Assembly: GCF_003289645.1 (NCBI RefSeq)
Contig: NZ_QLYX01000002.1
Coordinates: 1 to 64,000, forward strand
From: Actinomadura craniellae
Lineage (GTDB): Bacteria; Actinomycetota; Actinomycetes; Streptosporangiales; Streptosporangiaceae
DNA: 64,000 nt
Direction of reading: 5' to 3'
The position numbers were made by a program, and so were the translations under genes. Within the stretch, counting starts at the first letter, position 1. Every line of letters begins with the position of its first letter. The notes under the pieces were generated by a model. The model had not been told where the DNA came from and ran no database searches. It was given only the letters and a program-made list of their open reading frames with translations. Below are positions 22,529-57,285 of this stretch, piece by piece.

Positions 22529-23584
22529 GTGGCCGACATCGACCCCGCCCTCGTGGACTTCGCCGTGCTCGCGGACTGGATGGACGCCCAGGGGCTGCCC
22601 GGCGGGCCCATCGAGGAGGCGGTGCAACTCGGCGGCGGAACGCAGAACATCCTGCTCCGTTTCACCCGGGGCGGCCGGGCGTACGTGCTGCGCCGCGGCC
22701 CCCGGCACCTGCGGTCCAGGACGAACGAGGTGCTGCGCCGGGAGGCCCGGGTGCTCGCCGCGCTGGACGGCGGCGACGTTCCCGCGCCCCGGCTGATCGC
22801 GGCCTGCCCGGACGAGAACGTCATGAACGGCGCGGTCTTCTACCTGATGACGCCGGTCGACGGCTTCAACGCCACCGTCGCGCTGCCCGAGCCGTTCGCG
22901 AGTGACGCGGCGCTACGGCACCGGATGGGGCTCGACGCGGCGGCGGCGCTGTCGGCCCTCGCCGCGGTCGACCACGAGGCGGTGGGACTGGCGGACTTCG
23001 GCCGCCCGGCGGGCTTCCTGGAGCGGCAGGTCGGCCGGTGGACGGCCGAACTGGAGTCCTACGGCGCACTGGAGGGCTACCCCGGCCCGGAGATCCCCGG
23101 GCTGGCGGAGGTGGCCGGCTGGCTGGAGGCCAACCGGCCCACCACCTGGCGACCGGGCATCATGCACGGCGACTACCACCTGGCCAACCTGATGTTCGCC
23201 CACGACGCCCCCCGGGTGGCCGCGATCGTGGACTGGGAGATGTGCACGATCGGCGACCCGCTGCTGGACCTGGGCTGGCTGCTGGCCACCTGGCCGGGCG
23301 ACGACGACAGCGCCGCCATCGCCGGGCCGCTGGGGCTGGCGGGCGGCCTGCCGACCACCGACGAACTGATCGCCCGCTACGCCGAACGCCCCGCGGCGAC
23401 CGCGGGGCGGGACCTGGCGTCGATCACCTGGTACACGGTCATGGCCTGCTTCAAGCTCGGCATCGTGCTGGAAGGCACGCACGCCCGGGCCTGCGCGGGC
23501 AAGGCGCCCAAGGAGACCGGCGACCTGCTGCACTCCGTCACGCTCGGACTGTTCGGGCGGGCCCGCACCCTCATCAAAGCTTAG
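22529..23584 (+). CDS. APH-fold phosphotransferase, ACAD10/11 kinase-type
   Basis: 351 residues. The kinase fold shows the Brenner motif HGDYHLANLM (catalytic Asp and Asn) and the metal-binding VDWEMCTIGDPLLDLGWLLA segment near residues 210-255, the pattern of the phosphotransferase half of ACAD10/11 and of LvaA-like proteins, not of antibiotic kinases. It should phosphorylate the hydroxyl of 4-hydroxyacyl-CoAs for the divergent dehydrogenase. GTG start after GGAG. An iron box overlaps its stop codon but belongs to the downstream transporter genes. Confidence 0.9.
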   Translation: MADIDPALVDFAVLADWMDAQGLPGGPIEEAVQLGGGTQNILLRFTRGGRAYVLRRGPRHLRSRTNEVLRREARVLAALDGGDVPAPRLIAACPDENVMNGAVFYLMTPVDGFNATVALPEPFASDAALRHRMGLDAAAALSALAAVDHEAVGLADFGRPAGFLERQVGRWTAELESYGALEGYPGPEIPGLAEVAGWLEANRPTTWRPGIMHGDYHLANLMFAHDAPRVAAIVDWEMCTIGDPLLDLGWLLATWPGDDDSAAIAGPLGLAGGLPTTDELIARYAERPAATAGRDLASITWYTVMACFKLGIVLEGTHARACAGKAPKETGDLLHSVTLGLFGRARTLIKA

Positions 23585-23599
23585 GTTAGCCTTAGCTAA
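23581..23599. promoter_or_regulatory. Iron box upstream of the ABC half-transporter pair
   Basis: TTAGGTTAGCCTTAGCTAA closely matches the IdeR/DmdR consensus (TTAGGTTAGGCTAACCTAA). It overlaps the stop codon of the kinase gene and lies about 80 bases before the transporter start. A half-match, GGTTAGGCTTCC, follows at 23618-23629. It implies derepression of the exporter under iron starvation. Confidence 0.8.
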
Positions 23600-23679
23600 A
23601 TTATTTACCGGGTTTTCGGTTAGGCTTCCGGCGCGACGGAGCGCCCGCCCCCGGGCCCCGTACGGCGACGGAGGTGCGG

Positions 23680-25392
23680 GTGGGCGCTGCAAGAGCGCCG
23701 GGACGACGGGTCCTGGTAGGAGCGATCAGGAGCCGGGGCCGAGACGTGACCCTGAGCACGCTGCTGGCCACCGGCCACCAGGCCGGCGAGGCCCTGGTCC
23801 CCGTGGTGATCGGCGTGGTGATCGACCAGGCGGTGACCGGAGGCGACACCGGCGCGCTGGTGCGCTGGCTGGTGGTCCTCGGGCTGGTCTTCGCCGGGCT
23901 GTCCTACAGCTTCCGGTTCGGCGCCCGGTTCCAGGAGAGGGGCGCCGAACGCGCCGAGCACGCCCTCCGGCTACAGATCACCGAGCGGGTGCTGGACGCC
24001 CGCGGCGGGGCCGAGCAGGGCCGGCTGCCAGGCGCCCTGGCCAACATCGCCACCGGCGACGCCCGCCGGGTCGGCGCGGTGAACCTGGTGCTGCCCGCCG
24101 GGTTCTCCGCGATCGCCGGCCTGCTGGTCGGCGCCACCATGCTGCTGCGGGTCTCGGTGCCGCTCGGGCTGCTGGTCTTCCTCGGCCTGCCGCCGGTGCT
24201 CTGGCTGGCCCACCGGCTGGGCCGGCCGCTCGAACGGCGCAGCGAGGACGAGCAGGAGCGCGCGGCGCACGCCTCCGGGGTGGCGGCCGACCTGGTCACC
24301 GGGCTGCGGGTGCTCAAGGGAATCGGCGCGGAACGCGCGGCGGTCGACCGCTACCGGCGGACCAGCCAGGACTCGCTGGCGGCCACCCGGCGAGCCGCCG
24401 GCGCCCAGGCCTGGCTCGGCGGCGCCATGGTCACCCTGACCGGCGTGTTCATCGCGGCGGTCGCGCTGGTCGGCGGGCGGCTGGCCGCCGCCGACGAGAT
24501 CAGCGTCGGGGAGCTCGTGGCGGCCGTCGGGCTGGCGCAGTTCCTGCTCACCCCGCTGTCGATCCTGTCGTGGGTGAACGGCGAGCTGGCCCAGGCGCGC
24601 GCGTCCGCCGGCCGGATCGCCGAGTTGCTGGCCGCCCCGCCGGCCGTGCCCTCCGGCACCGCCGCACCGCCGGAGCCCGTCCGCGGCCGGATCCGGCTCG
24701 CCGGCGTCTCGCACGCCGCGCTGCGCAACCTGGACCTGGAGACCGCCCCGGGCGAGATGCTGGGCGTGGTGGCCCGCGACCCCGCCGCCGCCACCGCCCT
24801 GCTCGCCTGCCTGGGCCGCGACCTGGACCCCGCCGCGGGCGAAGTGGAGCTGGACGGGGTATCGCTGCGCGACCTGGATCCGGCCGACGTGCGCGCCGCC
24901 GTCCTGGTGGCCGGGCACGACGCCGAACTGTTCGAGGGCACCCTGCTCGACAACGTCACCGCCTGCCGTCCCGAACCGGCGGCCGAGACCGTACCGGAGG
25001 CCGTGACGGCGGCGATGCGGGCGGCGGCCGCCGACGAGGTGGCGCGGGCGCTGCCCGAGGGGACGGCGACCCCGGTCGCCGAGCGGGGGCGGTCGCTGTC
25101 CGGCGGGCAGCGGCAGCGGGTGGCGCTGGCCCGGGCGCTGGCCGCCGACCCCCCCGTCCTGGTCGTCCACGACCCGACCACCGCGGTCGACGCGGTGACC
25201 GAGGCCCGGATCGCGGCCGGGCTGCGCGAGGCCCGGCGGGGCCGCACGACCATCGTGGTGGCCACCAGCCCGGCCCTGCTGGCCGTCGCCGACCGGGTGG
25301 TGGTCGTCGAGGACGGCGCGGCGGTCGCCGAGGGCTCCCATTTCGACCTGGTCCGCGACCACGCGGGTTACCGATCGGCGGTGTTGTCGTGA
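23680..25392 (+). CDS. ABC half-transporter A with degenerate nucleotide-binding site
   Basis: 570 residues: six-helix transmembrane domain (about 1-310), then a nucleotide-binding domain. The signature [15 protein letters not shown] is intact, but the Walker A lysine loop is missing (VVARDPAAATALL), Walker B reads VLVVHDPTTAVD, the Q-loop glutamine is lost (VAGHDAELF) and the H-loop histidine is replaced (VVATSPALL). It can therefore only contribute the signature to its partner's site. GTG at 23680 has GGAGG 5 bases upstream; an in-frame GTG lies two codons earlier. It overlaps the partner gene by 4 bases. The iron box and the NRPS neighbourhood suggest siderophore export, or import in the manner of IrtAB. 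Confidence 0.88.
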   Translation: MGAARAPGRRVLVGAIRSRGRDVTLSTLLATGHQAGEALVPVVIGVVIDQAVTGGDTGALVRWLVVLGLVFAGLSYSFRFGARFQERGAERAEHALRLQITERVLDARGGAEQGRLPGALANIATGDARRVGAVNLVLPAGFSAIAGLLVGATMLLRVSVPLGLLVFLGLPPVLWLAHRLGRPLERRSEDEQERAAHASGVAADLVTGLRVLKGIGAERAAVDRYRRTSQDSLAATRRAAGAQAWLGGAMVTLTGVFIAAVALVGGRLAAADEISVGELVAAVGLAQFLLTPLSILSWVNGELAQARASAGRIAELLAAPPAVPSGTAAPPEPVRGRIRLAGVSHAALRNLDLETAPGEMLGVVARDPAAATALLACLGRDLDPAAGEVELDGVSLRDLDPADVRAAVLVAGHDAELFEGTLLDNVTACRPEPAAETVPEAVTAAMRAAAADEVARALPEGTATPVAERGRSLSGGQRQRVALARALAADPPVLVVHDPTTAVDAVTEARIAAGLREARRGRTTIVVATSPALLAVADRVVVVEDGAAVAEGSHFDLVRDHAGYRSAVLS

Positions 25393-27158
25393 CGGCTGTC
25401 GCGCAGGAGGAACGCGAGCTGCTGCCCCGGGCGAGCGGGGCACGGGTCCGCGCCACGGTGGGCGAGCTGCTGCGCCCGCACCGGGGGCTGCTGGTGGCCG
25501 GCTTCGGGATCCTGGTGGCGTCCACCGCGATCGGCCTGCTCATCGCGCCCCTGCTCGGGTACGTCGTCGACCTGGTGGTCGACGGGCGGCCGCCCGACGC
25601 GATCACCACGCCGGTGGTGCTGCTGGTCGCGGTCGCCGTCGCGCAGGGGATGACGGGCGCGGCCGGCGTGTCCCTGATCGCCCGGCTCGGCGAGGGGGTG
25701 CTGGCGACGCTGCGCGAGCGTTTCGTGGAACGTGCCGTGCACCTGCCGCTGGAACGGGTGGAGGCCGCCGGATCCGGCGACCTGTCCTCCCGGGTCACCA
25801 ACGACGTGTCGGTGATCGCCGAGGCGGTGCGCCGGGCACTGCCCGAACTGGCCCGGTCCGCGCTCACCATCGTGCTGACCCTGGTGGGGCTGGCCGTGCT
25901 GGACTGGCGGTTCATGCTCGCCGCGCTGCTGGCCGCCCCGATCCAGATCAACACCGTGCGCTGGTACCTGCGGAACGCACCGCAGGTGTACACCGCGCAC
26001 CGGGTCGCGGTCGGCGCCCAGCAGCAGCAGTTGCTCGACACGGTGGGCGGGGCGGGCACGGTCCGCGCGCTGGGCCTGGCCGACGAGCACGTGGCGCGGG
26101 TGACCCGGCGCTCGCTGTCGGCGGTGGACCTGGCGCTGCGCGGCATCCGGCTGCTGACCCGCTTCTACGCCCGGCTCAACCTCGCCGAGTACATCGGGCT
26201 CACCGCCGTGCTGGTGACCGGTTTCCTGCTGGTCCGCGGCGGCCACGCCAGCATCGGCACCGCCACCGCCGCCGCGCTGTACTTCCACAGCCTCTTCACC
26301 CCGCTCAACCTCGCCCTCGGCCTGGTGGACGACGCCCAGTCCGCCCTGGTCAGCCTGGCCCGCCTGGTCGGCGTCACCGACCTCGCGCACGAGGCGCCCG
26401 CGGCGGCGCCGGCGCGGCCGGAGTCCGCGGGGGTGCCGGTGAAGCTGGCCGGGGTGGGGCACGCCTACCGGCCGGGGCACCCGGTGCTGCACGGCGTCGA
26501 CCTGGAGATCGCCGCGGGCGAGCGGGTCGCGCTGGTCGGCGCCAGCGGGGCCGGGAAGACCACGCTGGCCAAGCTGATCGCGGGCGTCCACCGGCCGACC
26601 GCCGGCTCGATCTCCCTGGGCGGCGTCGAGCCCGGGGACGGGCGGACGGCCGCGCTGATCACCCAGGAGGTGCACGTCTTCGCCGGGACGCTCGCCGACG
26701 ACCTGCGGCTGGCCCGCCCGGACGCCACCGACGAGGAGCTGTCGGCCGCGCTCGACCGGGTCGGCGCGCTGGACTGGGTGCGGGCCCTGCCCGAGGGGCC
26801 GCGGACCGTGGTCGGCGAGGGCGGCCACCGCCTCACCGTGGCCCAGGCCCAGCAGCTCGCCCTGGCCCGGCTGGTGCTCGCCGATCCCCCGGTCGCCGTG
26901 CTCGACGAGGCCACCGCGGAGGCCGGTAGCGCCGGCGCCCGCGAACTGGAGCTCGCCGCCGACCGGGCGCTGGCCGGCCGGACCGCACTGATCGTGGCGC
27001 ACCGCCTCACCCAGGCCGCCGCCGCCGACCGCGTGGTGGTGCTGGACGCCGGCCGGGTCGTCGAGAGCGGCGCCCACGACGAGCTGGCCGCCCGCCCCGA
27101 CGGGCGGTACGCCGCCCTCTGGCGGGCCTGGTCCGACACCCGCCGGGACGAGGGGTAG
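25389..27158 (+). CDS. ABC half-transporter B with intact Walker sites
   Basis: 589 residues: transmembrane domain (about 25-330) and a nucleotide-binding domain with Walker A GASGAGKTT, Q-loop ALITQEVHVF, Walker B VAVLDEATAEAG and H-loop LIVAHRL. Its signature reads LTVAQAQQ instead of LSGGQ, and the D-loop aspartate is lost. The defects mirror those of the first half-transporter: together they form one complete ATP site (this Walker A with that LSGGQ) and one dead site. GTG start overlaps the previous stop (GTGA). A 19-bp hairpin downstream ends the unit. Confidence 0.9.
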   Translation: MTAVAQEERELLPRASGARVRATVGELLRPHRGLLVAGFGILVASTAIGLLIAPLLGYVVDLVVDGRPPDAITTPVVLLVAVAVAQGMTGAAGVSLIARLGEGVLATLRERFVERAVHLPLERVEAAGSGDLSSRVTNDVSVIAEAVRRALPELARSALTIVLTLVGLAVLDWRFMLAALLAAPIQINTVRWYLRNAPQVYTAHRVAVGAQQQQLLDTVGGAGTVRALGLADEHVARVTRRSLSAVDLALRGIRLLTRFYARLNLAEYIGLTAVLVTGFLLVRGGHASIGTATAAALYFHSLFTPLNLALGLVDDAQSALVSLARLVGVTDLAHEAPAAAPARPESAGVPVKLAGVGHAYRPGHPVLHGVDLEIAAGERVALVGASGAGKTTLAKLIAGVHRPTAGSISLGGVEPGDGRTAALITQEVHVFAGTLADDLRLARPDATDEELSAALDRVGALDWVRALPEGPRTVVGEGGHRLTVAQAQQLALARLVLADPPVAVLDEATAEAGSAGARELELAADRALAGRTALIVAHRLTQAAAADRVVVLDAGRVVESGAHDELAARPDGRYAALWRAWSDTRRDEG

Positions 27159-45862: not shown

Positions 45863-46876
45863 TCAGCGAGCCAGCAGCGGCAGCAGCTGGTCGAGCGCGT
45901 ACGGGATGCTCAGCACGGTCATGAAGGACAGCGCCGCGCCGACCGGCGGCTCCTCGTAGGGAACGAACAGGGCCCGGTTCTCCTGGGCGACCTTGAGGGT
46001 CTTGTAGACCCGGTCGTTCTTGACGTTCTTCTCGGCGGCGGGGTCGCTGTTCAGGAAGACCAGCCGGTCGACCTCGACCAGGTCGAGCCGCTCGGAACCG
46101 ATCTCCGCCGCGTACTCCTTGCCGACCGCCTGGACGATCTTGGGGGGGACGGCGAAGCCGAGCGACTTCATGAAGTCGACCTTGGGGTCGGTCGGGGCGA
46201 ACACGGCGTACTTGCCGGGCTCGTAGGCCTCGACGACGGCGACGGTCTTGCCGGCCCACTGCGGGTACTGCTTGCGGGCGTCGGCGAACCGCTTCTCGAT
46301 ACCGGCGATCAGGTCGTTCATGCGCTTCTCTTCGCCGAGGGCGCGACCGATCACCCGGGACATCTCCTGCCAGGGCATGGCGTAGTCGTCGTACTTGGGA
46401 GACTGCCCGACGGTCGGGGCGATCTTGGAGAGCTTCTCGTACTGGCCCTTGTTCATGCCCGAGTACTGGGCGATGATCAGGTCCGGCCGGAGCGCGGCGA
46501 TCTTCTCGATCTGGAAGTCGTCACGCTCGCCGACGATGGTGGGCGGGGTGGACCCCCACAGCGGCTGCGTCCAGGGCCACTTGCCGTACGGGCGCTCCTT
46601 GAACCAGTCGATGGCGCCGACCGGCTTCACCCCGAGGGCGAGCACCGCGTCGTGGTCGCTCAGGCCGAGCGTCACCACCCGGGTGGGCTTGGACTTGATC
46701 TCGGTGGTGCCGTACTTGTGCTGGATGCTCACCGGGAAGGCGGCGCCTGCCGGGGAGGCACCGCCGGTGGCGGCCTTCTCCTCCTCGCCGCCACAGGCGG
46801 CCAGCGCCAGGGCGAGGACGAGCGCGAGCAGTACCGCCACGAAACGTGGGGCGGCGAGCCGGGGGGATATGGACAT
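45863..46876 (-). CDS. Ferric-siderophore ABC transporter substrate-binding lipoprotein
   Basis: 337 residues. It starts with a lipoprotein signal peptide whose lipobox is LALAACGG (Cys near 27), then a FepB/FhuD-type type III binding fold: [23 protein letters not shown] and [14 protein letters not shown]. It captures the ferric siderophore outside the membrane for the FecCD/ATPase importer encoded divergently. ATG at 46876 has AGAGGAAC upstream, and an iron box lies 61 bases before it. The gene is 58 bases upstream of the NRPS on the same strand, so uptake protein, synthetase and MbtH probably share one iron-controlled transcript. Confidence 0.93.
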
Positions 46877-46936
46877 CGGTTCCTCTTCGGGGATCGGGGG
46901 CACGGTCCAATCGTTCGTGGACCAGCCAAGCGATAC

Positions 46937-46955
46937 TAAGGTGAGCCTTACCTAA
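46937..46955. promoter_or_regulatory. Iron box before the siderophore-binding protein gene
   Basis: TAAGGTGAGCCTTACCTAA matches the IdeR/DmdR-type box on both half-sites. It should control the minus-strand unit of binding protein, NRPS and mbtH, whose first start codon is 61 bases away. Confidence 0.82.
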
Positions 46956-46992: not shown

Positions 46993-47011
46993 TAAGGTAT
47001 GCCTGCCCTAA
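46993..47011. promoter_or_regulatory. Iron box before the FecCD permease genes
   Basis: TAAGGTATGCCTGCCCTAA is an iron-box match that overlaps a TAATAT element (47009-47014) usable as a -10 for the plus-strand permease unit. It also covers an upstream ATG at 46999, which argues that this ATG is not the permease start. Confidence 0.72.
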
Positions 47012-47031
47012 TATCCGCAGATAGGGTTTTC

Positions 47032-48081
47032 GTGACCATAACCAAGAATTCGCCGCCCTTGGAGATACCCCCGGCGACCCGAGCCCGAACCGTACGGCTG
47101 ACGCTGCTGTTGCTCGCGGCGGTGGCGGCGCTGGCGCTGATGTGCCTGCCGTCGATCGCGGTGGGCAGCCGGGCGGTACCGCTCGGCGATGTGGTGCAGG
47201 TCCTGACCGGTTCCGGCGATCCCCGGGTCGACGCGATCGTCTGGGGCGTCCGGGTGCCGCGCACCCTGCTCGGCCTGCTCGCCGGCGCGGCCCTGGGCCT
47301 GGCCGGCGCGGTGATGCAGGCGCTCACCCGCAACCCGCTCGCCGACCCCGGCCTGATGGGCGTCAGCGCGGGCGCCGCCTTCGCCATGGTGCTGGCCATC
47401 AGCCTGTTCGGGCTGTCCTCACTGTACGGCTACATTTGGTTCGCCTTCGCGGGCGCGCTGGCCGCCAGCGTGGTCGTGTACGTGCTCGGCGGGATGGGCC
47501 GGAGCGGTTCGACGCCGGTCAAGCTGGCACTGGCCGGAGTCGCCGTCACCTTCCTGCTGACCTCGATCACCCGGGGCATCGCGCTGGTCGACCCGGAGGC
47601 ACTCGACCGCTACCGGTTCTGGTCGGCCGGTTCCCTGGCCGGCCGCGGTACCGGCGTGCTGCTCCAACTCCTGCCGTTCGTGGCCGTCGGCGTGGTGCTC
47701 GCGCTGGCCCTGGCCCCCGCGCTCAACAGCCTCGGCCTGGGCGACGACGTGGCCGCGTCGCTGGGCCGCCGGGTAGGCCTGATCCGGTTGCAGGGCGCCC
47801 TGGCCGTGACGCTGCTCACCGGTGCGGCGGTGGCGGTGGTCGGCCCGGTCGTTTTCGTCGGCCTGGTGGTGCCCCACGCCGCCCGCGTGATCACCGGCCC
47901 GGACCACCGCTGGCTGCTGCCGTTCTCGATGGTCCTGGCCCCGCTGCTGCTGCTGGCCGCCGACACCCTCGGCCGGGTGGTGGCCCGGCCCGAGGAGATC
48001 AACGTGGGCATCGTCGCCGCGTTCCTCGGGGCCCCCTTCTTCATCCTCCTGGTCCGCCGCCGCCGGCTGGCCGAGCTGTGA
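47032..48081 (+). CDS. FecCD-family iron-siderophore permease 1
   Basis: 349 residues, about ten membrane helices of the BtuC/FecCD fold. Motifs: GVRVPRTLLGLLAGAALGLAG, MQALTRNPLADPGLMGVSAGAA, and the C-terminal VGPVVFVGLVVPHAAR, which contacts the ATPase. GTG at 47032 is preferred over the ATG at 46999 because that ATG lies inside the iron box and next to the -10 element; the mRNA leader would then be very short. It overlaps the second permease gene by 4 bases. With its partner it forms the heterodimeric inner-membrane channel for the ferric siderophore. Confidence 0.92.
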   Translation: MTITKNSPPLEIPPATRARTVRLTLLLLAAVAALALMCLPSIAVGSRAVPLGDVVQVLTGSGDPRVDAIVWGVRVPRTLLGLLAGAALGLAGAVMQALTRNPLADPGLMGVSAGAAFAMVLAISLFGLSSLYGYIWFAFAGALAASVVVYVLGGMGRSGSTPVKLALAGVAVTFLLTSITRGIALVDPEALDRYRFWSAGSLAGRGTGVLLQLLPFVAVGVVLALALAPALNSLGLGDDVAASLGRRVGLIRLQGALAVTLLTGAAVAVVGPVVFVGLVVPHAARVITGPDHRWLLPFSMVLAPLLLLAADTLGRVVARPEEINVGIVAAFLGAPFFILLVRRRRLAEL

Positions 48082-49133
48082 GCGCCGCCACCGGCCTGCG
48101 GCGGCCCGCCGTCCGGCTGTCCCGCCCGCCCGTCTCCGCGGTGGTGCGCCCGCGGGTCCTGCTGACCTGCCTGGGCCTGGCCGTGGCCGTCTTCGCGGTG
48201 TGCTGCGCCGGGCTGAGCATCGGTGACTACCCCGTCCCGCTCGCCGACGTGGTCCCCGCGCTGTGGGGGGCCGGCGACGGCGGCTCCGTGTTCATCGTGC
48301 AGGAGCTGCGGCTGCCCCGGGTGCTGGTCGGCCTGCTCGTGGGGGCGGCGTTCGGCGTCTCCGGAGCGATCTTCCAGGCCATGACCCGCAACCCGCTGGC
48401 CAGCCCCGACATGATCGGCATCAGTGCCGGGGCCGACACGGCCGTGGTCGCCGGGATCGTGCTCGGCGTCGGCGCGGGGCTCGGCGCCCCGGCCCTCGGC
48501 CTGCTCGGCGCGCTGGCCAGCGCGGCACTGATCTACGTGCTGGCCTGGCGGCGCGGTACGACCGGCTACCGGATCGTGCTGGTCGGGATCGGCATCTCCT
48601 GGATGTGCGTCAGCGCCACCGAGTGGCTGCTGACCAAGGCCCGGCTGCACCAGGCCCAACAGGCGCTGGGCTGGCTGGTCGGCAACCTGAACGCCCGCGG
48701 CTGGGAGCACGTGCGCCCGCTGGCCCTGGCCCTGGCCGTGCTGCTGCCCGCCGCGCTCCTGATGACGCACCGGCTGCGGGCGCTGCAGTTCGGCGACGAG
48801 GTCGCCGCGGGGCTGGGCGTCCCGGTGCAGCGGGCCCGGCTGGTCCTGGTGCTGGTCGGGGTCGGCCTGATCGCCTTCGGCACCGCGGCGGCCGGGCCGA
48901 TCGCCTTCGTGGCGCTGGTCGCGCCGCAGGTCGCGCTGCGGCTGGCCGGCACGGCCGGGCCGCCGCTGCTGACGTCCGCGCTGACCGGTGCGCTGATCGT
49001 GTCGGCCAGTGACCTGTTCGCCCAGCGGTTCTTCGACAGCGACCTGCCGGTCGGAGTGGTGACGGGCGTGCTGGGCGCGCCGTTCCTGCTGTGGCTGCTC
49101 GCCCGGACCAACCGTTCCGGATCAGGAGGCTGA
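48078..49133 (+). CDS. FecCD-family iron-siderophore permease 2
   Basis: 351 residues with the same FecCD helices: [42 protein letters not shown] and [19 protein letters not shown]. The GTG start overlaps the previous stop (GTGA), and its own stop is 1 base before the ATG of the ATPase gene. The open frame extends upstream inside the first permease gene, but that part is a shadow. It pairs with the first permease to form the transmembrane channel. Confidence 0.93.
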
Positions 49134-49134
49134 A

Positions 49135-49956
49135 ATGTCCCACTCACCGCACCGGCCCGAGCTGCGGGCGCACGGCCTCCGGCTGGGTTACGACGACCGG
49201 GTCGTGGTCGACGGCCTCGACCTGACGCTCCCGCCCGGCAAGATCAGCGTGATCGTGGGCGCCAACGCCTGCGGCAAGTCCACCCTGCTGCGGGCGCTGG
49301 CCCGGCTGCTGGCGCCCCGGTCGGGCGAGGTGCATCTGGACGGGCAGGCGATCCACTCGCTGCCCACCCGGCAGGTGGCGCAGCAACTGGGCATCCTGCC
49401 GCAGCAACCGGTCGCGCCCGAGGGGCTGACGGTGCTCGACCTGGTGGGTCAGGGCAGGGCGCCGCACCAGTCGTGGTGGCGGCAGTGGTCGGCCGGCGAC
49501 GAGCACGCCGTCGCGGCGGCGCTGGAGGCCACCGGGATGCTCGAACACGCGCACCGCCCGGTGGACGAACTGTCGGGCGGGCAGCGGCAGCGGGCGTGGA
49601 TCGCGATGGCGGTGGCCCAGGGCACCCCCGTCCTGCTGCTCGACGAGCCGACGACCTTCCTGGACCTCGCGCACCAGATCGACGTCCTCGACCTGATCGT
49701 CGATCTCAACCGGCGGGAGGGCCGGACGGTGGCGATGGTGCTGCACGACCTGAACCAGGCCTGCCGCTACGCCGACCACGTGATCGCGATGAAGGCCGGC
49801 CGCGTCGTCGCCGAGGGCCCGCCGGCCGGGATCGTCACCGGCGAGCTGGTGGAGGAGGTGTTCGACCTGCGCTGCCAGGTCGTCCCGGACCCGGTCAGCG
49901 GCACTCCCCTGGTCATTCCGATCGGCCGCCACCACACCGCGCCCGCCCCCCTGTGA
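49135..49956 (+). CDS. Iron-siderophore importer ATPase (FepC-like)
   Basis: 273 residues. Walker A is [11 protein letters not shown] near residue 43, the signature is [15 protein letters not shown], Walker B is [12 protein letters not shown] and the H-loop is MVLHDLNQA. These are the hallmarks of FepC/FhuC-type ATPases that power FecCD importers. AGGAGG lies 5 bases before the ATG, and the previous permease stop is 1 base upstream, so it is the last gene of the iron-controlled importer unit. It is convergent with the monooxygenase gene. Confidence 0.95.
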
Positions 49957-49984: not shown

Positions 49985-51301
49985 TCAGGGGGTGAGGGCG
50001 TAGGTGTCCGGGGCCGCGGTGCGGCGCGCCGCGAGCGAGCGGACGATCTCGCCCGCCCGGACGGCGGTGTTGGACAGCAGGGTGGAGGTGAGGCCGTGGG
50101 TGTGCTCGGTGGCACCCTGCACGTAGATCCCGCAGCTCAGCTCCGGAGCGGTGGCGATCCGGTAGTCGCGCTCGACCCGCAGCCCGCCCTCCGGCCGGCG
50201 CAGGCAGTACTCCCCCGCCTCGCCCAGCAGGGTCAGCGGGTCGCCGGGCCGGTAGCCGGTCGCGTACACCAGCGCGTCGGCCCGCAGTTCGGCGCGGTCG
50301 CCGGTCGGCAGGAACTCCACCGTGGCGCGGAGCCCGTCGCCGTCCTCGGCGACGGCGACGAGGCGGGAGGCGTTGAGGATCCGCAGCCGCTCGGCGCCCT
50401 GCACCTTCTCCTGGTAGGCCCGGCGGTAGAGCTCGTCGATCAGGTCCAGGTCGACCGCCGAGTAGTTGGTGGAGTGGTGGTAGTCCATGAGCATCCGCTT
50501 CACCGACTCCGGGGCGGCGTAGTAGTCCTCGACCGCCCCCGGGTCGAAGATCCGGTTGGCGAAGGAGCTGTCGTCGGCGGGCGTGTAGCCGTACTTGGCG
50601 AAGACCGCGCAGACCTCGGCGCCGGGGAAGGTGCGGTGCAGGTGGTCGGCGGTCTCGGCGGCGCTCTGCCCGGCTCCGACCACGATCACCCGGCGCGGGT
50701 CGGTGAGCCCGGGCAGCCGGTGGAGCAGGTCGTTGCTGTGCCAGACGCGCTCGCCGGCCACCACGCCCTTGGGCAGCACGGGCTCCAGCCCGGCCGCGAT
50801 CACCAGGTTCCGGGTGCGGGTGGTGGCGAGTTCGTCGGCGCCGTCGCCCCGGCGTACGACGACGTCGAAGTACTCGACCGTTCCATTTTCGCCGGCGACC
50901 GGCCGGACGGCGACCACCTCGGAGCCGTACTCGACCTCATGGGGAAACCGGGCGGCGGCCCACTCCAGGTAGTCGTGAAACTCCAGCCGGGAGGGGAACA
51001 TGGTCTTGTGGTTGATGAAGTCGGCCAGCCGCCCCCTGTCCTGCAGGTAGTGCAGGAAGCTGAAGGAGCTCCCCGGGTTCCGCATGGTGACCAGGTCCTT
51101 CAGGAAGGACACCTGCATGGTGGCGTCCTCCAGGAGCATGCCGCGATGCCAGCCGAAGGCGGGTTGCCGCTCGAAGAAGACCGCGTCGAGCGCCTGGCCG
51201 GTCTGCTCGCGATGCTCGCGCAGCGCGATCGCCAGGGCCAGGTTCGAGGGGCCGAAGCCGATGCCGACCAGATCGCGGACATGCTCGTACGAGGGGGACA
51301 T
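49985..51301 (-). CDS. L-ornithine N5-/lysine N6-monooxygenase
   Basis: 438 residues of the SidA/IucD/PvdA family, FAD- and NADPH-dependent hydroxylases of the side-chain amine. FAD motif DLVGIGFGPSNLALAI at the start, the family's HRGMLLEDATMQVSFLKDLV segment, NADPH motif VIVVGAGQSAAETADHL and the C-terminal ATGYRPGDP. In this cluster it should make N5-hydroxyornithine, since A3 of the NRPS carries the hydroxyornithine code. ATG at 51301 follows GGAAAGGG by 6 bases; a GTG nine codons earlier has no such site. A perfect iron box lies about 75 bases upstream. Confidence 0.94.
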   Translation of the reverse strand: MSPSYEHVRDLVGIGFGPSNLALAIALREHREQTGQALDAVFFERQPAFGWHRGMLLEDATMQVSFLKDLVTMRNPGSSFSFLHYLQDRGRLADFINHKTMFPSRLEFHDYLEWAAARFPHEVEYGSEVVAVRPVAGENGTVEYFDVVVRRGDGADELATTRTRNLVIAAGLEPVLPKGVVAGERVWHSNDLLHRLPGLTDPRRVIVVGAGQSAAETADHLHRTFPGAEVCAVFAKYGYTPADDSSFANRIFDPGAVEDYYAAPESVKRMLMDYHHSTNYSAVDLDLIDELYRRAYQEKVQGAERLRILNASRLVAVAEDGDGLRATVEFLPTGDRAELRADALVYATGYRPGDPLTLLGEAGEYCLRRPEGGLRVERDYRIATAPELSCGIYVQGATEHTHGLTSTLLSNTAVRAGEIVRSLAARRTAAPDTYALTP

Positions 51302-51375
51302 GGGCGCCCTTTCCAGGAACGTACTCACGAGAACTCGGGGGAACGGGAGCGCCGGAACGCGCCGCCCATATTACC

Positions 51376-51394
51376 TTAGGTAAGGCTTACCTAA
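51376..51394. promoter_or_regulatory. Iron box before the N-monooxygenase gene
   Basis: TTAGGTAAGGCTTACCTAA is a perfect 19-base dyad and the strongest iron box in the window. It lies between the divergent monooxygenase and formyltransferase genes, nearer the first. Confidence 0.88.
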
Positions 51395-51461
51395 GAATGG
51401 CAAGCCTGACCACACCCAAGCACCGCCCGCCAGGGGCTGTCAAGGACCCCTCCACACCACT

Positions 51462-51480
51462 GTAGGTTAGGCTCCCCTAA
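51462..51480. promoter_or_regulatory. Iron box before the formyltransferase gene
   Basis: GTAGGTTAGGCTCCCCTAA matches the iron-box consensus at 16 of 19 positions. It lies 43 bases before the formyltransferase start. With the box at 51376 it makes a two-box divergent control region. Confidence 0.75.
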
Positions 51481-51523
51481 CAAAGGTTCTCCTAATCTTC
51501 CCCCCTGCCCGAGGAGAAAACGT

Positions 51524-52471
51524 ATGCGGGTCGTCATGTTCGGCTACCAGACCTGGGGCCACCGCACGCTGCAGGCCCTCGTGGACGCCGGCCACGAAAT
51601 CCCCCTGGTGGTGACCCACCCGCCCAGCGACCACGCCTACGAGAAGATCTGGGACGACTCGGTGGCCGACCTCGCCGCCGAGCACGGCCTGCCCGTCCTG
51701 CTGCGCAACCGCCCCGACGACGAGGAGCTGATGAGCCGGCTCAAGGAGGCCGACCCCGACGTCATCGTCGCCACCAACTGGCGGACCTGGATCCCGCCGC
51801 GCATCTTCGACCTGCCCCGGTACGGCACCCTCAACGTGCACGACTCGCTGCTGCCCAAGTACGCCGGCTTCGCCCCGCTGATCTGGGCGCTGATCAACGG
51901 CGAGAAGGAGGTCGGCGTGACCGCGCACATGATGACCGAGGAGATGGACGCGGGCGACGTCGTCCTCCAGCGGGCGGTGCCCGTGGGCGACACCGACACC
52001 GCCGCCGACCTGTTCCACCGGACCCTGGAACTGTTCGGCCCAATCACCGTGGACGGGCTGGAGCTGATCGCCTCCGGCCGCACCGACTGGGCCCGGCAGG
52101 ACCGTTCCCAGGCCAGCTTCTTCCACAAGCGGTCCATCGAAGACAGCCGGATCGACTGGACCTGGCCCGCCGAGGACCTCGACCGGCTGATCCGCGCCCA
52201 GTGCGACCCCTACCCCAACGCCTTCACCCACCGCGGCGGCGAGCGCATCCGCGTCATCAAGGCGTCGGTGTCCAAGGGGATCTACGGCGGCACCCCGGGC
52301 CGTATCTTCATCCGCGAGGGGGACGGGGTGGTGATCGTCGCCGGGGCCGAGGCGCGGCGCGGCCGCAGCCACGGCCTGGTCATCGAGCGGATCCGGCTCG
52401 ACGACGGCACCGAACTGCCGGCCACCGAGTACTTCACCACCATGGGCGGCTACCTCACGAGCCACCCGTGA
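51524..52471 (+). CDS. N5-hydroxyornithine formyltransferase-like protein (methionyl-tRNA formyltransferase fold)
   Basis: 315 residues. The N-terminal formyltransferase domain carries the catalytic Asn-His-Asp set in LNVHDSLLPKYAGF and MTEEMDAGDVV, followed by a C-terminal Fmt-like barrel. Dedicated copies of this kind (such as CchA of coelichelin) use formyl-tetrahydrofolate to formylate N5-hydroxyornithine, creating the hydroxamate. Its iron box, the divergent ornithine hydroxylase and the NRPS support that role over initiator-tRNA formylation. GAGGAG precedes the ATG. Its stop overlaps the M20 peptidase start by 4 bases. Confidence 0.9.
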   Translation: MRVVMFGYQTWGHRTLQALVDAGHEIPLVVTHPPSDHAYEKIWDDSVADLAAEHGLPVLLRNRPDDEELMSRLKEADPDVIVATNWRTWIPPRIFDLPRYGTLNVHDSLLPKYAGFAPLIWALINGEKEVGVTAHMMTEEMDAGDVVLQRAVPVGDTDTAADLFHRTLELFGPITVDGLELIASGRTDWARQDRSQASFFHKRSIEDSRIDWTWPAEDLDRLIRAQCDPYPNAFTHRGGERIRVIKASVSKGIYGGTPGRIFIREGDGVVIVAGAEARRGRSHGLVIERIRLDDGTELPATEYFTTMGGYLTSHP

Positions 52472-53727
52472 GGGACCGGCTCGCCGCCGCCCTGGCCGCC
52501 GAGACCGGCGCCCTGACCAGGCTGCTCACCGAACTGGTCCGGATCCCCAGCCCGGGCGGCTCGCCCGGCGAAGTGGCGATCCAGTCCCGCCTGGCGGAAT
52601 GGCTGCGCGCCGAGGGCCTGGACGTCGACCACTGGCGGTTGCCGCTGGCGGACTTGACCGCACGGCCGGACTTCCCCGGCATGGAGGTCCCGCGGGTGGA
52701 GGCCTGGGGCGTCGCCGCCCGGCTGCCCGGCAGCGGCGGCGGCCGGTCGCTGATGTTCAACGGGCACGTCGATGTGGTACCGCCCGGTGAACCGGCGGCC
52801 TGGCGCGAGTGCGGACCCTACGACGCGCTGGTCCGCGACGGGATGCTGTACGGGCGCGGCGCCTGCGACATGAAGGGCGGCCTGGTCGCCGCCCTGTTCG
52901 CGGTGCGGGCGCTGCGCCGGTGCGGGATCCGGCTGCGCGGCGACCTGATCGTCGCCTGCGTGGCCGGCGAGGAGGACGGCGGGCTCGGCACCTACGGTCT
53001 GCTCGACCGGGGCTGGCGGGCGGACGCCTGCGTGATCCCCGAGCCCACCGGGCTGGACGTGGTCCCCGCCAACGCGGGCGCGCTGACCTTCCGGCTGAAG
53101 GTCACCGGCCGGGCGGCGCACGCGGCCCGCCGCACCGCGGGAATCAGCGCGGTCGAGCGGTTCTGGCCGGTCTTCGCCGCGCTGCGCGAGCTGGAGGCGC
53201 GGCGCAACGCCGACGTCGACCTGCTGATGCGCCGCTGGGACGTCCCGTACGCGATCGAGGTCGGCACCGTGCACGCCGGCGACTGGGCGGCCACCGTGCC
53301 CGGCGAGCTGGTCGCCGAGGGCCGGATCGGCGTGGCGCTGGGCGAGCCGGTGGAGGCGGCCCGGCAGGCCCTGGAGGACGCGGTCACCGGCCACGGCGCC
53401 GAGGTCGAGTGGTGGGGCGGCCGGTTCGCGGCCGGCCCGCCGCCCGCCGGTGACCTGGTGGCGCGGCTGGCCGCCGCCCATCGGGCGGCGGCCGGCCGTG
53501 CACTGGACTCACCGGACGTCTGGGGCGCCCCATACGGGAGCGACCTGCGGCTGCTCGCCGCGGCGGGCGTCCCCACCGTCCAGTACGGCCCGGGCGAGCT
53601 CGACCGGATGCACGCTCCGGACGAGCGCGTGCGGATCTCCGAGGTGGTCACCGCGGCGCACGCGCTGGCCCTGCTCGCCCTGGACCACTGCGGGACGGCT
53701 CCCGGGGCGGCTGGGGTCAGCCCTTGA
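52468..53727 (+). CDS. M20-family metallopeptidase/deacylase
   Basis: 419 residues, ArgE/DapE-type. Zinc ligands appear in FNGHVDVVP (His), YGRGACDMKGG (Asp), the catalytic Glu pair in CVAGEEDGG, then IPEPTG and the C-terminal RMHAPDE (His). A dimerisation lid domain lies between. The family hydrolyses N-acyl-amino acids and small peptides. GTG start inside the formyltransferase stop (GTGA), so it belongs to the siderophore unit. It might remove a protecting acyl group, supply ornithine, or open the ferric siderophore to free iron; the sequence does not decide. It overlaps the next gene tail to tail by 11 bases. Confidence 0.9.
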   Translation: MRDRLAAALAAETGALTRLLTELVRIPSPGGSPGEVAIQSRLAEWLRAEGLDVDHWRLPLADLTARPDFPGMEVPRVEAWGVAARLPGSGGGRSLMFNGHVDVVPPGEPAAWRECGPYDALVRDGMLYGRGACDMKGGLVAALFAVRALRRCGIRLRGDLIVACVAGEEDGGLGTYGLLDRGWRADACVIPEPTGLDVVPANAGALTFRLKVTGRAAHAARRTAGISAVERFWPVFAALRELEARRNADVDLLMRRWDVPYAIEVGTVHAGDWAATVPGELVAEGRIGVALGEPVEAARQALEDAVTGHGAEVEWWGGRFAAGPPPAGDLVARLAAAHRAAAGRALDSPDVWGAPYGSDLRLLAAAGVPTVQYGPGELDRMHAPDERVRISEVVTAAHALALLALDHCGTAPGAAGVSP

Positions 53728-54340
53728 ACGGCTGGGGCGCGCCCTTCTCGCCGGCGCCGGAGCCCCAGGAGAGGACCTCGTACTTGACGTCGTTCAGGTG
53801 GCCGGCGCCCACCCCGGCGTCGTAGTTGCTGGACGGCTTCCCGCCGTCGTAGAGGTAGCGGAAGGTGTAGGTGTCGAGGTCGAGCATGACGCCGCGGTGC
53901 GACGGCTCGCCCGGCCCGCGGTCACCGACGAAGCCGGTCACGCTGCGGCCCTGGTAGGTCACCCTGACCTTGCTGTGCAGCGGCCAGCTCGGGCTGGCGA
54001 ACAGGCCCTTCTGCATCGGCTTGCCGCCGGCGGGCGCGCCGGTGTCGCCCCGCACACCCGACCCGTCGTCCCAGAAGTAGGACGCCTTGGTGGTGCCGGA
54101 GGCCAGGGCCCGAGAGCGCATCTCGGGCGCGGCGGCGCCCTGGCGTTTCTGGATCTTCCACACCGGTCGCTCGGAGTCCCTCGCGAGTGCCAGTTCCTGG
54201 GACTGCGCGGCCGCACGGTTCCCGGTCGGCTCCTCGTTGGCGGCGTTGGCGACCTTGGTCGCGGCCCCGGCGGCGACGCCGCCGACGAACACGGCTCCGA
54301 GGATCCCGGCGACGGCCGTGTTGAGCGCTTGCTGCTTCAT
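53717..54340 (-). CDS. Secreted double-psi beta-barrel (RlpA-like) protein
   Basis: 207 residues. A signal peptide or single N-terminal membrane helix (MKQQALNTAVAGILGAVFVG) is followed by a low-complexity linker. The C-terminal half resembles the RlpA/expansin double-psi barrel: VRVTYQGRSVTGFVGDRGPGE, then RGVMLDLDTYTFRYL. The asparagine/aspartate catalytic pattern of lytic transglycosylases is not clear, so cell-wall binding is safer than catalysis. ATG at 54340 has AAAGGA upstream. It ends within the M20 gene's last codons and does not look part of the siderophore pathway. Confidence 0.72.
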   Translation of the reverse strand: MKQQALNTAVAGILGAVFVGGVAAGAATKVANAANEEPTGNRAAAQSQELALARDSERPVWKIQKRQGAAAPEMRSRALASGTTKASYFWDDGSGVRGDTGAPAGGKPMQKGLFASPSWPLHSKVRVTYQGRSVTGFVGDRGPGEPSHRGVMLDLDTYTFRYLYDGGKPSSNYDAGVGAGHLNDVKYEVLSWGSGAGEKGAPQPFKG

Positions 54341-54908
54341 GGAAATCCTTTCCGGGGTGACGGGAACCGTTTCGCTTCGACTCGGGTATGCGGAAACGGC
54401 CCCGGGAGAGGGCATGGACGTCTGTCAGGGAGTGCCGTCACAAGGACCGCGAAAGCGGCTCCGCAAATGCCTTTCCGGCGCACTGTGATACCGCGGCGGA
54501 AAATTGCATGGAGATCACCGGATCGAACCCGACCGCCTGTATCCATGCAGGTCAGCAAGATGGGAACGAGGGTGGTGGCCACTCCGGCCGGAAGCCGGGA
54601 GCTGACGGCTATGCGCTATGGGCTATACGAAGTTGGTGGGCTCTTGACCCCGCTTGGTGCCACATATAAGCATACGAGAACCAGAACAGCCAAATCTTTG
54701 GGGTTTAATCCAGAATGAAGGTAGATCTTTTTGGCCCGGGCCTGGCTCAGGAGACCCGACCATTCTTCGAAAAGGCCTGTGGAATAAGGGATGGCGCCCG
54801 ATCGGGCCGCTCCCCGCCGCCGGGCCGGATCGGGAGAGACCGGTAAAGCACCGGTACGCCACCCCGGAACGGGCCGTAGTACCACGAGCACCCATCGTGT
54901 CTGGCACC
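54341..54908. other. Intergenic region with an AT-rich stretch and a promoter candidate
   Basis: About 570 bases without a convincing gene. Codon bias in the short open frames is not that of the neighbours. Bases 54615-54780 are clearly less GC-rich than the rest. TTGACC (54644-54649) and TATAAG (54665-54670), 15 bases apart, could be a promoter for the permease on the right, giving a 240-base leader that contains CCCGATCGGG/ATCGGG inverted repeats and two ACCGGT words. No riboswitch class or Zur box could be recognised. Confidence 0.4.
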
Positions 54909-55946
54909 ATGATTGCCATGACCGACCGAGCCGGGGCAGGGACGGCCGCCGAGGACGATCTGTATCCGCCCCCCGATTGGGCCGCCCGGCGCACCGCGCC
55001 GGGAACCCGGGCCCTGCTGACCTTCGCCGCGCTGGCCGCCCTGCTGGTCGCGGGCCGCCTCTGGGTCGCCCCCGAGGTGGGCGGGCGGGCGCTGGACGCC
55101 TGGACGACCATCTTCGTCGCCATCTGCGTCCAGGCGCTGCCCTTCCTGGTCTTCGGCGTCGCGCTGTCCGCGGCCATCACGGCGTTCGTGCCGCCCGGCG
55201 TCTGGAACCGGCTGCTTCCGCGGCGGCCCGGCCTGGCCGTACCCGTCGCCGGCGCAGCCGGGGCGGTACTGCCGGGCTGCGAGTGCGCCTCGGTCCCGGT
55301 GGCGAGCGGGCTGATGGCGCGCGGGGTGGCGCCCGCGGCGGCGCTGACGTTCCTGCTGGCGGCCCCCGCGATCAATCCCATCGTGCTGATCGCGACCGCG
55401 GTGGCGTTCCCCGGTCAGCCCGAGATGGTGCTGGGGCGGTTCGGCGCCTCGCTGCTGGTCGCCGTGCTGGCGGGCTGGGCGTGGCTGCTGTTCGGCCGGG
55501 GCGAGTGGCTGAAGATCCCCGCCCGCCCGCACGCCGAGGCCGGCCGGCGCTGGGAGGCGTTCCGCCAGGCCATGCGGCACGACATCATGCATGCCGGAGG
55601 GTTCCTCGTGGTCGGCGGCGTCGCGGCCGCCACCATCAACGTCGTGGTACCGGCCGAGTGGGTGACCGGGATCGCCGGGATCCCCTGGGCCGCGGTGCTG
55701 ACGCTGGCGGTGCTGGCGGTGCTGATGTCGATCTGTTCGGAGGCCGACGCGTTCGTGGCGGCCAGCCTGAGCCAGTTCTCCCCCACCGCCAAGCTCACCT
55801 TCCTGGTGGTCGGCCCGATGGTGGACCTCAAGCTCATCGCCCTGCAGACCGGCTTCTTCGGCCGCCGGTTCGCGGTGCGATTCATTCCACTGACCTTCGC
55901 CCTGGCGGTGGGGGTCAGTTCCCTGGTGGGATGGGTGCTGTTGTGA
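54909..55946 (+). CDS. YcgR/ArsP-type (UPF0718) permease
   Basis: 345 residues, eight or more membrane helices. The cysteine motif GCECASVPVASGLM in the middle and the repeated half near MSICSEADAFVAASLSQFSP are typical of the UPF0718/DUF318 permeases, which include organoarsenical efflux ArsP and the YcgR protein. The following gene is its usual YcgQ-type partner, which points to divalent metal handling in the manner of the Zur-controlled ycgRQ genes. Start choice is uncertain: ATG 54909, ATG 54918 or GTG 54897, none with a clear ribosome binding site. It overlaps the partner by 4 bases. Confidence 0.85.
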   Translation: MIAMTDRAGAGTAAEDDLYPPPDWAARRTAPGTRALLTFAALAALLVAGRLWVAPEVGGRALDAWTTIFVAICVQALPFLVFGVALSAAITAFVPPGVWNRLLPRRPGLAVPVAGAAGAVLPGCECASVPVASGLMARGVAPAAALTFLLAAPAINPIVLIATAVAFPGQPEMVLGRFGASLLVAVLAGWAWLLFGRGEWLKIPARPHAEAGRRWEAFRQAMRHDIMHAGGFLVVGGVAAATINVVVPAEWVTGIAGIPWAAVLTLAVLAVLMSICSEADAFVAASLSQFSPTAKLTFLVVGPMVDLKLIALQTGFFGRRFAVRFIPLTFALAVGVSSLVGWVLL

Positions 55947-56671
55947 CGAAGTCTGCGCAGAACCTCCTGCTGATCACGCTCGGCGCCGCCACGCTGTGGA
56001 TCACCGTGGCCACCGACGAGTACCTCAACTACGTCAAGCCGTGGTTCCGCTGGGCTCTGATCGCCGCAGCGGTGGCGGTGGTCGTGCTGGGCGCCGCCGG
56101 GCTGCGCCGCGAATGGCACGACGCCGACGACCACGACGACCACGGGCACGACGACCACGGGCACCACGGCCCGCGGGTGGCCTGGCTGCTCTGCCTGCCG
56201 GCGCTGGGCATCTTCCTGATCGCGCCGCCGGCGCTGGGCTCCTTCACCGCCGACCGCAACTCCACCCGGACCGCGGCGCCGCCCGCCCCCGACGAGGGCT
56301 ACGGCGCGCTGCGTCCGACCGGAGGCCCGCTGGCCATGACGATCAGCGAGTTCATCGGCCGCTCGTTCGAGGCGCAGACAGGCGACCCCGGCACGCTGCG
56401 GGGCATCCCGGTCCAGCTGTCGGGCTTCGCGGCACCGCGGCCCCAAGGAGAGGGCTGGTACCTCACCCGGCTGCGGATGGCCTGCTGCGCGGGCGACGCG
56501 ATCCCGATGCGGGTCATCGTGCACGGCGCGGCCCGGCCCAAGACCGACACGTGGGTGTCGGTGGTCGGCACCTGGATGCCGCCCACCGCGGGTGCGCCCG
56601 TCACCGGAGTGCACGAGGTGCGGGCGCAGCACACACGGCCGATCAAGAAGCCCAAGAACCAGTACGAGTGA
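55943..56671 (+). CDS. TIGR03943/YcgQ-family membrane protein with histidine-rich loop
   Basis: 242 residues. Two N-terminal membrane helices, a histidine/aspartate-rich loop (DDHDDHGHDDHGHHG) and a third helix are followed by a C-terminal domain with RMACCAGDAIPM. The histidine cluster is likely to bind zinc or a similar metal. GTG start overlaps the permease stop (GTGA), so the two work together, probably as a two-component metal transporter of the YcgR/YcgQ kind. No regulator is nearby. Confidence 0.85.
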   Translation: MTKSAQNLLLITLGAATLWITVATDEYLNYVKPWFRWALIAAAVAVVVLGAAGLRREWHDADDHDDHGHDDHGHHGPRVAWLLCLPALGIFLIAPPALGSFTADRNSTRTAAPPAPDEGYGALRPTGGPLAMTISEFIGRSFEAQTGDPGTLRGIPVQLSGFAAPRPQGEGWYLTRLRMACCAGDAIPMRVIVHGAARPKTDTWVSVVGTWMPPTAGAPVTGVHEVRAQHTRPIKKPKNQYE

Positions 56672-56747
56672 CGGGGAGTCCCGGCAGCCACAGGGCCCAC
56701 GGCGTCGGGGGCTCCGGCCGGCCCGGCGGAACCGCCGGGCCCTCGGT

Positions 56748-57086
56748 TCAGGGGTACATCGGCGCCAGTGGCTGACCCGGCGCGCCGACCGGGTACGGCG
56801 CCGGCATCGGGTCATGCCGGGGCTCGAACTCGTGCGCCGGCGCGCCGACCGCCTGGTGGCGGCCCGCGAGCACAGCACGGTACTCGCTCAGCATCATCAT
56901 CAGCACTCGCGCGGAGTCGGCGTCCATGCGCACCAGGGCGCTCGGCCGGCCGGCGGCGTCGACGTACGGGGATACCGCCGGAGTGTCCGACGTCGCCCCC
57001 GGTCTGAGGGTCTGCCGCAGTTCCTCGCGCAGTTCATGCGCGAGGCGCAGCGCTTCTCGGTCACTGGCGTTCAGATGTCCTGTCAT
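56748..57086 (-). CDS. Hypothetical protein divergent to an XRE regulator
   Basis: 112 residues, not recognised. The first half is helical and charged (SDREALRLAHELREELRQTL), the middle is VRMDADSARVLMMMLSEYRAVL, and the tail is proline-rich and disordered. ATG at 57086 has GGAGAG 6 bases before it; the ATG 14 codons earlier is less well placed. In actinomycetes a small gene commonly sits beside a DUF5753 XRE regulator; this one is in that position but is not a DUF397 protein. It is probably controlled by the regulator. Confidence 0.6.
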   Translation of the reverse strand: MTGHLNASDREALRLAHELREELRQTLRPGATSDTPAVSPYVDAAGRPSALVRMDADSARVLMMMLSEYRAVLAGRHQAVGAPAHEFEPRHDPMPAPYPVGAPGQPLAPMYP

Positions 57087-57143
57087 CGCGATCTCTCCAA
57101 GGAGTTCACGTGGCCCTGTCCGGGCCATCCTGTCCTGATCTAC

Positions 57144-57174
57144 TGTGCAGGTGCAAGATCTGATGCACGTGCAT
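57144..57174. promoter_or_regulatory. Palindromic operator candidate between the hypothetical and XRE genes
   Basis: ATGCACGTGCAT (57163-57174) is a perfect 12-base palindrome preceded by the related TGTGCAGGTGCAA (57144-57156). Both lie between divergent genes, where the XRE protein would be expected to bind. Confidence 0.4.
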
Positions 57175-57285
57175 TCTCACAGAATCAACGCGGCGGCCGC
57201 TGTGCGGCCCCCCGGCAGGCGGCTGGACATGAAAGACTGGACACCCGACGTGCCCAGGCCCGGCCCCTCCCGAGGAGCGCCTTTC

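Follow-up and report, generated by a model that had tools for sequence, protein, structure and literature searches.

The window, by which we mean the whole 64,000-nucleotide stretch of DNA analysed here, comes from a genome of 7.5 Mb and contains a run of genes in which two ABC exporter-fold half transporters are followed, in order, by an NRPS, a siderophore-binding protein, two FecCD permeases, an ATPase, an L-ornithine/lysine N-monooxygenase (NMO), a formyltransferase (FMT) and an M20-type metallohydrolase, referred to below as M20 (Table 1). The joint presence of NMO, formyltransferase, NRPS and FecCD importer identifies this as a formyl-hydroxamate NRPS siderophore cluster, and from its content we infer that FMT acts on hydroxyornithine. 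A sequence-only reading of the same DNA had used erythrochelin as its frame of reference. This needed correcting, since erythrochelin carries acetyl groups, whereas in this cluster we find a formyltransferase, and the first module of the NRPS includes a methyltransferase domain. The ABC exporter-fold pair (23674-27158) could export the siderophore or, in an IrtAB-like manner, could take it up; similar pairs recur beside the NRPS in many related clusters, and one follows FMT and M20 in a Catellatospora locus (L045). No tRNA was found within the window.

Table 1. Features of the siderophore cluster and of the FMT-M20 junction, in window coordinates.
Feature	Position	Strand	Basis or remarks
Iron-box-like site ahead of the ABC exporter-fold pair	23581..23599	.	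Consensus scan
ABC exporter-fold half transporter	23674..25392	+	Iron-box-like site at 23581-23599
ORF with second ABC exporter-fold half transporter	24570..27158	+	True start probably further in
Four-module NRPS, 5755 aa	28537..45804	-	A-MT-T-E-C-A-T-E-C-A-T-C-A-T-terminal C, with an N-terminal C-like remnant
Siderophore-binding protein (Peripla_BP_2)	45863..46903	-	Pfam
Iron-box-like site between binding protein and FecCD permease 1	46937..46955	.	Consensus scan, 3 mismatches
FecCD-type importer permease 1	46999..48081	+	Pfam, NCBIfam
ORF with FecCD-type permease 2 in its C-terminal half	47142..49133	+	Pfam match from residue 351; start of ORF provisional
Siderophore importer ATPase	49135..49956	+	Pfam, NCBIfam
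NMO, divergent to FMT	49985..51328	-	PF13434, 368 bits
Iron-box-like site, NMO/FMT intergenic	51376..51394	.	2 mismatches to TTAGGTTAGGCTAACCTAA; 0 expected in shuffles
Second iron-box-like site, upstream of FMT	51462..51480	.	Consensus scan, 3 mismatches
FMT, 315 aa	51524..52471	+	Formyl_trans_N and Formyl_trans_C (Pfam)
GTGA, 4-bp overlap of M20 start with FMT stop	52468..52471	+	Sequence
M20 (ArgE/DapE-type) metallohydrolase	52468..53727	+	Pfam, NCBIfam, GC3, structure model
Span of conserved M20 residues (H100 to H382)	52765..53613	+	Alignment

The M20 ORF is intact and complete, starts with GTG and encodes 419 aa; its GC3 of 0.95, together with matches to Peptidase_M20 (PF01546, 131.1 bits against a Pfam gathering score of 24.6) and to the M20_dimer domain (46.2 bits against 21), marks it as a real gene. 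Within NCBIfam the protein passes the cut-off of the ArgE/DapE subfamily (TIGR01910, 256.3 bits against 217.6) and falls short of the equivalog models for ArgE (TIGR01892, 140.3 against 297.7) and DapE (TIGR01900, 93.3 against 304.2; TIGR01246, 78.7 against 361.8), so that none of the equivalog cut-offs was reached among the 25 NCBIfam families listed. Residues H100, D102, D134, E168, E169, E192, H218 and H382 are invariant across 48 aligned homologues and, if we take their metal-binding and catalytic roles from the usual M20 pattern (in which H218 is not among the metal ligands and catalytic acid residues compared), the metal site appears intact. An AlphaFold2 model (pLDDT 93.4, pTM 0.92) finds its best solved match in 3pfo (Z 46.0, rmsd 2.7 over 406 residues), the putative acetylornithine deacetylase RPA2325 of Rhodopseudomonas palustris, which shares the two-domain M20 fold and is also the best sequence match in the PDB, at 30-33% identity and with a title that says only 'putative'. 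Entries for DapE, 5-nitroanthranilate aminohydrolase and ArgE rank after it; ArgE (7rsf/8uw6) and DapE (5vo3, 7uoi) have the fold in common with M20 but are only about 21-23% identical to it. Since inspection of the sequence by eye revealed no signal-peptide-like start, the enzyme is presumably cytosolic. Compared with its relatives, the window's M20 has about 10 residues fewer after residue 307 and one extra near residue 114. The 3' end of the M20 gene is overlapped by a few bases by a convergent minus-strand ORF (53717-54415, 232 aa, GC3 0.91) that matched nothing in Pfam or NCBIfam, and further downstream (54791-58203) lie a TIGR03943-family permease subunit and a Sco1979-family regulator that are apparently unrelated to the cluster.

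The overlap of the M20 start with the FMT stop, which the sequence-only reading had pointed out, is borne out: the GTG start (52468-52470) and the TGA stop (52469-52471) combine as GTGA. When identical loci that had been fetched twice were entered once, 17 of the 22 distinct FMT-linked junctions measured had this 4-bp overlap, four lay at +1/+2 and one at +88; the junction is thus no product of chance. We scored iron-box-like sites by their mismatches to TTAGGTTAGGCTAACCTAA, which we take to be the iron-box consensus, and with up to 3 mismatches on both strands obtained six matches, against none in 100 shuffles; they include sites at 23581, 46937, 51376 and 51462. Because two such sites lie between NMO and FMT, FMT and M20 are probably carried on one iron-regulated transcript. 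Comparable sites occur near FMT in most of the relatives scanned. A search of 51300-54500 for sigma-70-like promoters and terminator-like sites found none.

We counted both genes across 297 genomes of the family, finding M20 matches at 1e-60 in 89 and FMT matches at 1e-90 in 72; by coordinates, the two are adjacent in 16 of the 72 FMT-bearing genomes, the window included, while the other 56 have no adjacent M20. Thirty FMT loci were read in sequence. A 250-genome sample of Catellatospora's family contained M20 at 1e-75 in 38 genomes and FMT at 1e-120 in 68, with the genes adjacent in seven. When 394 genomes were sampled across the class, 59 matched M20 at 1e-75. Those relatives at 58-64% identity whose surroundings could be read stand beside unrelated genes, and one such relative occurs in a Chloroflexota bin, where the 11 kb that could be read contain no siderophore genes. 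Stand-alone relatives from further actinobacterial families (L231-L246) have a conserved neighbourhood that includes ORFs presumably UvrD-like, PDZ/Lon-like, ABC1-like and ThiF-like from the look of their sequences; the gene may originally have resided in this setting.

All FMT-linked M20 proteins form a single clade, of 23 rows with support 100/98 in a smaller tree; in a larger tree with added stand-alone relatives they are contained in a clade of 31 rows with support 97/87. With identical genomes counted once, this clade represents 26 distinct genomes of our sample, from two families, and FMT lies directly upstream of M20 in 24 of them. The two exceptions are an importer-linked Actinocorallia copy (L087) and a displaced copy in genome G661 (L254) that is adjoined by unrelated ORFs in its 1.5-kb flanks. 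Both are nested inside the clade, among the FMT-labelled rows, and for this reason a strict clade of all those rows was rejected (p-AU 0.0005). At least three changes of FMT linkage are required on the larger tree. We regard a single recruitment from a stand-alone deacylase, followed by later moves, as the simplest story that these trees suggest. Only six positions set the FMT-linked clade apart, and the conserved catalytic residues are not among them, so no shift in specificity is visible in the core.

We compared clusters that have M20 with clusters that lack it, by nine-letter A-domain signatures taken from one alignment and used only for comparison between clusters. Each of three signature classes includes clusters of both kinds: G037, G097, G218, G275 and G272 with M20 versus G084 without in class 1, where all genomes have genus code g38 except G097 (g67); G132, G044, G179, G062 and G069 versus G094, G263 and G248 in class 2; and G016 and G102 versus G268, G098, G064, G280, G274 and G200 in class 3, which is three-module and coelichelin-like. 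These matches allow one variable letter in places, with only partial signatures for G272 and G200, and position 3 of the third-module signature may be misaligned, because it differs from the known hydroxyornithine code. A search at 1e-6 gave no M20, among the matches listed, in the stretches fetched around the M20-less clusters, and G084, G094, G263 and G248 are absent from the genome-wide M20 matches at 1e-60. In an FMT tree of 47 rows, 22 of them with M20, presence of the gene is scattered and many forks are weak. Since clusters with matching signatures exist with and without M20, and most FMT-bearing relatives have no M20 beside FMT, M20 does not appear to be an assembly step: the comparison of signatures suggests that it is accessory and dispensable for siderophore assembly. 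Related clusters that lack the gene yet agree in A-domain signatures and in NRPS layout weaken the earlier proposal that M20 trims an acylated intermediate in a dedicated step of biosynthesis, although such agreement falls short of proof of identical products.

In Actinocorallia sp. API 0066 (L042, identical with locus L087 of G074), the M20 gene closes a FecCD-FecCD-ATPase-M20 run, and its ATG start and the stop codon of the ATPase gene overlap as ATGA. This ATPase and that of the window share 77% identity, and an iron-box-like site with 4 mismatches lies upstream of the run. FMT, NMO, binding protein and NRPS are found on a separate contig, with no M20 in the 386 bases between FMT and the contig end, and with no cluster-type FecCD or ATPase in the 24.9 kb read. 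This arrangement is what a role on the uptake side predicts, and it is seen in only one genome. Conversely, four loci (G252, G134, G271 and C. bangladeshensis) keep FMT and M20 with no importer in the stretch read, and in C. bangladeshensis, where NMO is about 4 kb away, an iron-box-like site (4 mismatches) belongs to the pair itself. The linkage of M20 to FMT is therefore tighter than its linkage to the importer, NMO or NRPS. This favours a substrate with a formyl-hydroxyornithine unit, and the main rival reading is then editing at the FMT step.

A second set of M20 genes beside FecCD importers (genus g4, 48-55% identical) was considered as uptake linkage and rejected, because in 11 of the 12 loci L062-L073, whose M20 is about 50-54% identical, the ATPase/FecCD set is convergent and not in one operon with M20, about 0.06-2.4 kb away and mostly within one genus, and because these M20 proteins form a separate branch of the tree. 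At L074-L081, an ATPase/FecCD set occurs only at L075, about 7 kb away. The M20 genes of L062-L073 lie near ORFs that, from the look of their sequences, we take to be DUF1349-like and GroES-like.

Our best explanation, to which we assign a probability of roughly 45%, is that M20 is a cytosolic amidohydrolase acting on metabolites that contain formyl-hydroxyornithine, on the side of turnover or quality control. The enzyme would be a metal-dependent member of the ArgE/DapE subfamily that probably goes back to a single recruitment of a stand-alone deacylase widespread among actinobacteria, co-translated with FMT from a putatively iron-regulated promoter and accessory to, rather than part of, assembly. 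Its predicted substrates would be either the imported siderophore, whole or in fragments, or monomers that are faulty or in excess, and the bond cut would be the formyl C-N bond or a peptide bond; hydrolysis would destroy ligand groups and return iron and hydroxyornithine. The comparison across actinobacteria suggests that the enzyme more likely serves siderophore breakdown or correction than assembly. Against this explanation stand the restriction of the importer-only arrangement to a single genome, the four FMT-M20 loci with no importer in the stretch read and the absence of catalytic residues from the clade-specific positions. The activity may also be older than, and unrelated to, siderophores, as the relatives at 58-64% identity are solitary and have unrelated neighbours. 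A narrower version, in which a dedicated amide-cutting hydrolase breaks formyl-hydroxamate siderophores in the cell, by deformylation or peptide cleavage, as a route of iron release or recycling, is speculative, although we would give it some weight; under it, the M20 gene is common to FMT operons and, once, to an importer operon. Of the roles offered by the sequence-only reading, hydrolysis of the siderophore for iron release is the one that best fits the Actinocorallia importer-operon copy, yet the tighter tracking of FMT counts against it. We rejected the idea that M20 stands in for a missing iron reductase, since SIP-type reductases (PF08021) were found in 38 of 38 genomes tested, although G218 and G069 gave only weak or partial matches, and offered no contrast; another route of iron release is thus probably available, which counts against our best explanation.

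Editing coupled to FMT, in which M20 as a deformylase takes off formyl groups that are misplaced or in excess and so balances hydroxyornithine and formyl-hydroxyornithine for the NRPS modules, would account for the position of M20 after FMT in nearly the whole clade, across different NRPS layouts, and for the C. bangladeshensis pair, and a deformylase activity (YlmB) occurs within the ArgE/DapE group. Editing cannot be generally required, as M20 is not adjacent to FMT in 56 of the 72 genomes of the family with FMT, and it leaves the importer-linked Actinocorallia copy unexplained; we consider it unlikely, though the strongest of the rivals. Somewhat harder to credit is that M20 is a passenger, an unrelated housekeeping deacylase or general peptidase captured by the operon and with no siderophore-specific role. 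The wider family is often stand-alone, its closer relatives have unrelated neighbours, and FMT-linked and stand-alone proteins have a catalytic core in common, but the overlapping, co-directional linkage is kept over two families and several NRPS types, and iron-box-like sites accompany the gene in both FMT and importer contexts.

The remaining two possibilities place M20 nearer to biosynthesis. Trimming of an acyl group or terminal residue, giving M20-bearing strains a different final siderophore, would suit an exo-acting deacylase or peptidase, as M20 enzymes are, in an operon with a biosynthetic gene; given that M20 may be present or absent inside each of the three signature classes and is kept at the Actinocorallia locus without biosynthetic genes, we think this improbable. 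Least probable to us is the deacetylation of N-acetylornithine to supply the pathway with ornithine under iron starvation, another of the roles proposed from the sequence. Membership of the ArgE/DapE subfamily speaks for it, but it is weakened by the failure to reach the ArgE cut-off and by the presence of ArgJ in the source genome (339 bits against a cut-off of 298), and M20 is linked to FMT and not to NMO, the ornithine-using step.

Hydroxamate clusters of the coelichelin, foroxymithine and erythrochelin types resemble that of the window in combining NMO, an acyl-group transferase, NRPS, a FecCD importer and iron-box-like sites. We know of no M20 gene in clusters of these types, whereas in the window FMT is followed by a member of the clade that follows FMT in almost all of its genomes. 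The earlier statement that an M20 enzyme lies outside the known erythrochelin pathway agrees with our literature search, in which no such gene turned up; nor did searches of open-licence papers on scabichelin, coelichelin and M20 with siderophores find a description of an FMT-M20 pairing. Hydrolysis is an established means of iron release from ester siderophores. The main texts of PMC6024995 and PMC4599437 mention neither M20 nor a peptidase. According to PMC11800396, hydroxamate siderophores usually release iron by reduction, and hydrolysis of the peptide backbone of a hydroxamate siderophore is claimed there, in 2025, as a first report. The amphibactins of that study are alike in that proteolytic cleavage of a peptidic hydroxamate siderophore is proposed, and differ in that other bacteria and another siderophore are concerned and M20 has 0 occurrences in the main text.

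The conserved, probably iron-regulated M20 partner of FMT is a defined candidate enzyme for the hydrolysis of hydroxamate siderophores, and clusters with matching signatures, such as G084 and its genus mates, provide natural pairs with and without the gene. If M20 is an editing deformylase, it would explain how the two hydroxyornithine pools are kept in balance.
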